Shown here: positions 876 through 2,592 of the stretch, piece after piece
Layout: every line of letters begins with the position of its first letter
How positions within the stretch are numbered: position 1 is the stretch's first letter
DNA from: Candidatus Nomurabacteria bacterium
GTDB taxonomy: Bacteria > Patescibacteriota > Minisyncoccia > Phycocordibacterales > UBA9973
Direction: 5' to 3'
NCBI GenBank assembly: GCA_023267195.1
Contig: JAHFNT010000002.1
Coordinates: forward strand, 151,830-190,712
DNA length: 38,883 nt
The notes under the pieces: generated by a model
The model's database searches: none
Told to the model about the DNA's origin: nothing
What the model saw: only the letters and a program-made list of their open reading frames with translations
Position numbers and translations under genes: made by a program

Positions 876-1047
876 TTTTGCTGTACTTTGTTTTGTTTCG
901 TTCTTTGTTTAACTTTTTTATTTTGTATGTCTATTCCACACTTGTCATTAAGTTTTAAGTTCTTGCAAACTATTGCGCGCTCAATTGAGGCGTGCAATAC
1001 CGACTCACATGGGCCGACCTTCATCCGAAGGCCGGACCCGTTTTTCA

Positions 1048-2592
1048 AATTGAATTATTCCACGAGCAGCTTCCGCTACCCGTGCCTTGTTACGACTTAG
1101 TCCCTGTCACCGAGCTTACCTTAGGACCCGCTTCTGCGGATACTTCGGGTACTCCCGGCTCCCTTGACTTGACGGGCGGTGAGTACAAGACTTGAGAACG
1201 TATTCACCGCAGTTTAGCTGACCTGCGATTACTAGCAATTCCAGCTTCATGAAGGCGAGTTGCAGCCTTCAATCCGAACTGAGGCCACTTTTAAACGGTT
1301 AGCTCAGAGTCGCCTCGTCGCAACGCGTTGTAGTGGTCATTGTATTATGTGTGTAGCCCAGGGTATCAAAGGGACATGCTGACCTGGCGTCATCCTCTCC
1401 TTCCTCCCCCGCCTTTGCCCATAAAAAATTTTTACGATCAAAGGCGGGGGCGGTCTCGTGTGACACTTGTAACACACAACGAGGGTTGCGTTCGTTAGCC
1501 CACTTAAGGGTACAATTCAAACCACGAACTGACGACGGCCATGCATCACCTGTCCTAGAGTCTTGCGAGGCCCCGAGTTTCCTCGGGCTTTCACTAGGAT
1601 TTCTAACCCTGGTAAGGTTCTTCGTTTACCATCGAATTAAACCACATAATCCACTGCTTGTGCAAGTCCCCGTCTATTCCTTTGAGTTTTAGCCTTGCGG
1701 CCGTACTTCCCAGGCGGATCTCTTAACGCGTTAGCTAAGCCACTCAGAGGGTCGATACTCCGAATAGCGAGAGATCATCGTTTAGGGCGTGGACTACTGG
1801 GGTATCTAATCCCATTCGCTACCCACGCTTTCGTGCTTCAGTGTCAAATATGCGCCAGTATACTGCCTTCGCATTTGGTATTCCCCATGATATCAACGGA
1901 TTTCACCCCTACACCATGAGTTCTGTATACCTCTCGCACTTTCAAGTTCTGCCGTTTCTTTCGCGATCCCCAAGTTAAGCTCGGGTCTTTAACAAAAGAC
2001 TAACAGAACAACCTACGCACCCTTTACGCCCAATAATTCCGGATAACGCTCGAGGCTCTCGTATTACCGCTCCTGCTGGCACGAGATTAGGAGCCTCTTA
2101 TTCATGAGGTACAGTCAATAAACTTCTTCCCTCATAAAAGATCTTTACGTCCCAGAGGGACTTCATCAATCACGCGGCGTCGCTCCATCAGACTTTCGTC
2201 CATTGTGGAAGATTCTCGACTGCAGCCACCCGTAGGTGTATGGTCCGTGTCTCAGTACCATCGGTGGGGGTCAGGCTCTCACCTCCCCTAGACGTCATAG
2301 CCTTGGTAGTCCATTACACTACCAACTAGCTGATATCGCACAGGCCTTTCCTCCAGCGTTAAAACTTTACTCTTGGACAAAAGTCCTTGAGGCCATCGTG
2401 TATTAGTACGTCTTTCGACGTATTATTCACGACTGAAGGGGAAGTTCCTATGTATTACTACCTCGTTCGCCACTAACTTTCTACGACCTTTGACTTGATA
2501 TAATCTCATCTCCGATTTTAGAAAGTCCGTTCGACTTGCATGCCTTATCCACGCCGCCAGCGTTCATCCTGAGCTAGGATCAAACTCTAACT
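1048..2592 (-). rRNA. rrs: 16S ribosomal RNA
   Basis: Reverse complement contains AGAGTTTGATCCTAGCTCAG near the 5' end, AAACTCAAAGGAATAGACGG, GGATTAGATACCCCAGTAGTCC, GTACTCACCGCCCGTC and AAGTCGTAACAAGG near the 3' end; helix 45 with a GGAA loop at 1061-1084. Confidence 0.97.

Follow-up and report, generated by a model that had tools for sequence, protein, structure and literature searches.

The 16S rRNA gene and its 3' end

The window, a stretch of 38,883 nucleotides on contig JAHFNT010000002.1 of a Candidatus Nomurabacteria bacterium, carries a solitary 16S rRNA gene with no 23S gene adjoining it (Table 1). Judged from its sequence, the host is a Nomurabacteria-like member of the Parcubacteria (Patescibacteria), and a 16S tree puts the window's 16S among members of its order. 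Few stretches of bacterial rRNA are as conserved as the CCUCC tail, and KsgA dimethylates the loop of helix 45 close before it. The minus-strand sequence of this gene ends ...AAGTCGTAACAAGG-CACGGGTAGC-GGAA-GCTGCTCGTG-GAATAATTCAATTTGAAAAA, and the first G of the replacement tail closes helix 45. The original prediction, made from the letters alone, held that helix 45 is intact while the anti-Shine-Dalgarno (anti-SD) sequence is gone. RNA folding agrees on the helix, returning a stem of 10 bp capped by a GGAA loop at 1084-1061. The letters quoted for the tail are right, and the minus strand between 1086 and 820, by which point the next gene has already begun, contains neither CCTCC nor CTCC. Near 878-917, where the original prediction presumed a pre-rRNA processing stem, the hairpin that stands out is a terminator-like one at about 869-842 (Table 1). 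The 16S rRNA of this bacterium truly lacks CCUCC and bears a different, conserved tail instead.

Table 1. Features of the 16S locus, with positions in the window; the last row lies at locus L318 of the same genome (G000).
Feature	Position (strand)	Description
16S rRNA gene	1048..2595 (-)	RF00177, 1359.8 bits; all 1533 model positions matched (1-1533)
Helix 45	1061..1084 (-)	CACGGGTAGC-GGAA-GCTGCTCGTG, intact; from sequence and RNA fold
Replacement 3' tail	1044..1061 (-)	GGAATAATTCAATTTGAA, standing where GGATCACCTCCTT is expected
Palindrome inside tail	1044..1054 (-)	TTCAATTTGAA; proposed remnant of a 3' maturation hairpin
Terminator-like hairpin	about 842..869 (-)	AACACC...GGTGTTTTT; downstream of the 16S gene; from sequence only
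TATAAT and next start codon	824..839 (-)	TATAAT at 839-834, 13 nt ahead of the ATG (826-824); example of a near-leaderless start
bS21-like ORF and YbeY	L318:101-744 (-) (G000:C1:88800-90200)	bS21-like ORF (511-744) directly upstream of YbeY (101-508)

Conservation of the tail and reach of the loss

Eight 16S genes from the same genus, found with RF00177 and independently of the tail, have GGAATAATTCAATTTGAA invariant over 18 nt. Their mean pairwise identity is 98.6% (0.986) across the tail against 38.6% (0.386) across the next 20 nt, and conservation ends sharply after TTTGAA; the difference between tail and flank argues for selection on the tail. On this comparison the tail is a fixed, conserved replacement rather than the product of simple decay. 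One further sequence, L014 (from G018), is filed under the same genus but was excluded, its 16S having a different place on the tree; its tail (GAGTTTTAACTAAATTTT) likewise sets it apart, and this 16S is likely misbinned.

The tail terminates in the palindrome TTCAATTTGAA, and the selection on it may possibly act through a maturation hairpin. Across the class, the tail plus adjoining precursor forms hairpins longer than those of shuffled sequences in all three groups of tails. In the group that has lost the anti-SD, represented by 37 families, hairpin arms paired with their own partners over 4.01 bp, as compared to 3.49 bp for arms swapped between families, and only one of 400 rounds of swapping did as well. 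These chimeras were built from one representative per family, rather than from covariation in a single alignment, as the hairpin axis shifts between families. The arms change from CTCCTT/AGGGAG to ATTTCCT/AGGGAAT, AATCTT/GAGATT or CTCTTT/AAAGAG. We propose that a 3'-maturation hairpin kept past the loss of CCUCC would explain this pairing of arms. In the window's own sequence the palindrome hairpin is weak and is absent from the minimum-energy fold, and for this reason the maturation hairpin remains no more than a proposal.

The genus and order supplied 40 relatives, whose 16S genes were located without reference to the tail. Their readable 16S tails lack CCTCC; these include that of G026, a single contig rated 100% complete. 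At least 119 stretches in named GTDB genomes, on more than 100 contigs, match a pattern of helix 45 plus tail, and their titles, where a lineage is given, name mostly Nomura-, Zambryski-, Taylor-, Adler- or Parcubacteria; as the pattern contains part of the tail, these matches name the lineage and cannot test the loss. CCTCC falls within the tail proper in none of the 143 order or named tails collected, most of which were selected with a tail pattern, and its two occurrences among them both lie further downstream.

An even sample of 191 genomes from the class was surveyed with a helix 45 anchor independent of the tail. The anchor matched in 132, a few of the matches being off-target, and 47 carried CCTCC, so that roughly two thirds of the sampled class members with a readable tail are without it. 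Other tails in the class run from one-base variants (CATCTCC) through TTTCTCC and CATTTCC down to no trace of the motif. In a sample of 290 genomes from the phylum, the other Patescibacteria classes mostly keep CCTCC among the matches listed. In that sample, again among the matches listed, the variant cores CACTTCC, CATCTCC, ATCTCTT and ACCGCC recur in families f157, f145 and f135, and the downstream arm has often changed to match (CTTCC..GGGAA vs TCTCC..GGGAG).

Of the 31 lost tails among the 77 rows of a 16S tree, 28 group in a single clade with SH-aLRT support of 100, and further separate losses occur besides; all tail states together require six changes by a quick method, on a tree from which many lost families are absent, as they had no locus. 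The tree shows one old loss, that of the well-supported clade, and others separate from it. The original prediction, which called such loss rare in bacteria, was right that the loss is real. Rather than an oddity of this one genome, it is an old, clade-wide state and common in the class; the same tail recurs in genus and order.

An order of many species has apparently lacked CCUCC from its beginnings, and in related families the motif has decayed by degrees (CCUCC, UCUCC, UUCUCC, none). The graded families offer a natural series in which to ask what the anti-SD is needed for, and whether leaderless initiation precedes its loss. Gene finders that expect SD motifs may misplace starts in such genomes, and the 16S 3' end itself is often incompletely annotated in CPR bacteria (PMC12641178).

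Start signals and translation factors

For every ORF of 100 aa or longer, the furthest upstream ATG was called as the start, a choice that blurs signals, and the statistics for this genome draw on somewhat more than half of it. SD 4-mers precede 0.055 of its starts as compared to 0.047 in shuffled sequence (z 0.8, n=309 ORFs); the same script applied to E. coli gives 0.410 against 0.155 (z 7.6). By interval, they stand ahead of 5.5% of starts (-18..-4) or 3.9% (-16..-5), figures that are a proxy and not RNAhybrid predictions. Values in this genome exceed neither the shuffled nor the far-window level. Pooling six genomes with lost tails (n=682) gives 0.060 against 0.073 in a far window (OR 0.81, p 0.39), while five pooled CCTCC-bearing relatives give an OR of 1.59 (p 0.055) and E. 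coli an OR of 8.35; SD use is therefore weak even where the anti-SD is kept, G169 excepted. The two marks of a canonical SD user, a CCUCC tail and SD enrichment before starts, are both missing here, with the E. coli control positive. The suggestion that this bacterium initiates translation independently of SD motifs found support in a comparison with shuffled sequence of the kind proposed as a check.

A different signal is present. TAnnnT stands at -12 ahead of 18.8% of this genome's starts, as compared to 1.2% of internal ATGs, and TATAAT ahead of 4.5% as compared to 0.04%. The TAnnnT peak is sharp and lies exactly at -12, both in intergenic starts (29 of 120) and in close ones (34 of 211). 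Because this is where a -10 box is expected if transcription begins at the start codon, we read it as a leaderless signature; the element places the predicted transcription start on the start codon in many genes, and many genes appear to be translated from messages that start right there. The leaderless start pattern noticed in the window is borne out to this extent, about 19% of starts having a -10 box at -12. A strict box precedes only about a fifth of starts, so an initiation signal has been found for a minority of genes. Two CCTCC-bearing relatives, G227 and G204, also combine the -10 box with little SD use, and leaderless layout and anti-SD loss are therefore only loosely coupled.

Factors of initiation and 16S maturation are retained. 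IF3 was found in 36 of 36 genomes, and KsgA scored over cut-off in 20 of 21, this genome among them (215.9 bits). YbeY is a 16S 3'-end nuclease. This genome encodes it (2e-24), as well as a bS1 of 361 aa with four S1 domains and a bS21-like ORF of 77 aa that scores under Pfam's cut-off; the pairing of the bS21-like and YbeY genes (Table 1) may be functional. Era scored over cut-off in none of the 36 genomes, CCTCC-bearing or not, which matches a report that era is mostly missing from Paceibacteria (PMC12641178). We rejected Era loss as the cause of anti-SD loss, since CCTCC-bearing relatives also lack Era, and dropped a tie between bS21 loss and anti-SD loss, bS21 matches being weak and scattered in both groups.

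Alternatives and the proposed explanation

One way to discount the tail would be an assembly error, contamination or a 16S pseudogene copy. The source assembly (648 kb in seven contigs) is a 91% complete draft with one 16S copy, and its 23S gene was not found, so it misses at least one rRNA locus; a second 16S copy is for that reason excluded mainly through relatives. Mixed assemblies do exist: G152 has two 16S 3' ends (G152:C6:258 and G152:C2:172188), one of them a CCTCC-bearing fragment near a contig start, on a separate contig and with a different helix 45, which is probably contamination. Against an artefact, no second 16S was found in this genome, and the single-contig G026 likewise has just one 16S, whose tail is of this kind. 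A misassembly near position 1050 would not recur in the many independent assemblies that carry this tail, nor would it leave the tail exactly conserved beside a diverging flank. We regard an artefact as extremely improbable. No more credible is an intron or insertion that parts the anti-SD from helix 45 in the gene, the two being rejoined in the mature RNA. CPR rRNA genes often hold introns and insertions (PMC12641178, PMC11270868), but in the 207,684 bases that follow 154 lost tails TCACCTCC turns up three times, with 3.2 expected by chance (4^-8), the window's whole minus strand below 1050 is without CCTCC, and the tail is conserved with no second exon; we rejected the intron on the chance-level count. 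In the first 300 nt past the same 154 tails, CCTCC occurs at 14 loci and GGAGG at 40, a strand bias in the 16S trailer.

Strong conservation is also what one would expect of a pairing sequence, and the new tail might pair with a new, complementary SD-like motif in mRNA. Non-trivial tail-complement 5-mers before the starts of this genome are at or below expectation, however (seen/expected: TTTCA 8/8.2, TTCAA 5/8.5, TTGAA 9/9.8, GAATT 7/11.8), and since only generic A/T words that overlap the -10 signal are enriched (such as AAATT, AATTA and ATTAT), we rejected a re-coded motif, which seems very unlikely. A functionless tail, drifting after relaxation and alike within the genus through recent shared ancestry, is somewhat easier to entertain, as lost tails vary widely across the class. 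It is nevertheless improbable in view of the 98.6% identity of the genus tail beside 38.6% in the neighboring 20 nt, and of own hairpin arms that beat family-swapped arms in 399 of 400 rounds.

At slightly less than even odds, we entertain the reading that the loss is old, stable and clade-wide and that a new conserved 3' element (GAAUAAUUCAAUUUGAA) has taken on a role of its own, as a maturation hairpin with the cleavage site in its loop or as a dock for bS21 or bS1 that aids leaderless initiation. If so, the mature 16S 3' end is expected inside or just past AAUAAUUCAAUU.

The explanation that we favor, with a probability of roughly 0.85, combines a clade-old anti-SD loss, initiation without mRNA:16S pairing, a leaderless share of genes and a tail kept for maturation. 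A Nomurabacteria-like clade would have lost the anti-SD before its order diversified, SD use having probably become negligible beforehand, which would leave the CCUCC core free to change. A sizeable share of genes, those with a -10 box at -12, would be transcribed from the start codon or within one base of it, and their leaderless messages would be taken up through pairing of the start codon with initiator tRNA. The remaining genes would rely on A/T-rich leaders in a cell that has retained bS1 and IF3. The tail would have been kept short and constant in length, the probable reason being that the 3' end must still be matured, with YbeY a candidate for that step.

Genomes without an anti-SD and scarce in SD motifs are a published category. 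Lim et al. 2012 listed 15 non-anti-SD genomes, as summarized in PMC3522020; Amin et al. 2018 counted 128 taxids, mainly Bacteroidetes, Mycoplasma and Carsonella (PMC6107228); and a 2024 survey found 112 SD-scarce organisms without CCUCC, five of them CPR genomes (two Absconditabacteria, Campbellbacteria, Peribacter and Wolfebacteria; PMC10783764), so that Campbellbacteria and Wolfebacteria already represent the wider group. Its class iv is defined by fewer than 5.5% of genes with SD:anti-SD pairing predicted by RNAhybrid and by an unstructured 16S 3' end without CCUCC in all copies; the sole copy found here, in a 91% complete assembly, has neither CCTCC nor CTCC. Members of class iv resemble this clade in tail, in lack of SD enrichment and, often, in reduced genomes. 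The class iv CPR cases are single genomes, whereas here the loss covers all sampled order members with a readable tail and other families of the class, the replacement tail is fixed and conserved, and a -10 box stands at -12. What is added here is that clade-wide extent and that fixed tail. We found no description of the clade-wide loss, the graded series or the replacement tail in the literature searched; the search was partial, and novelty is unproven.

Mammalian mitochondrial mRNAs are largely leaderless, and the ribosomes of mycobacteria and Deinococcus-Thermus keep CCUCC and also use SD leaders. The mammalian mitoribosome small subunit is, like the one described here, without an anti-SD (PMC10582724), but it belongs to an organelle of different ancestry in which ERAL1 is present, where Era was not found over cut-off here. 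In mycobacteria and Deinococcus-Thermus, many mRNAs have their 5' end at the start codon and a promoter -10 element just upstream, as predicted for this clade (PMC4633059, PMC5397173). The SD-scarce Flavobacteriia and their fellow Bacteroidota, some with an anti-SD and some without, likewise show SD-independent initiation clade-wide (PMC6847099, PMC10783764); in many of them CCUCC persists and is sequestered, bS21 assisting (PMC10783764), whereas here CCUCC itself is gone.

Elsewhere in the window, a cobalamin riboswitch (RF00174, 34.4 bits) at 20858-21005 (+), in what is a small Parcubacteria genome, lies upstream of ORFs 21076-21504 and 21497-23332.
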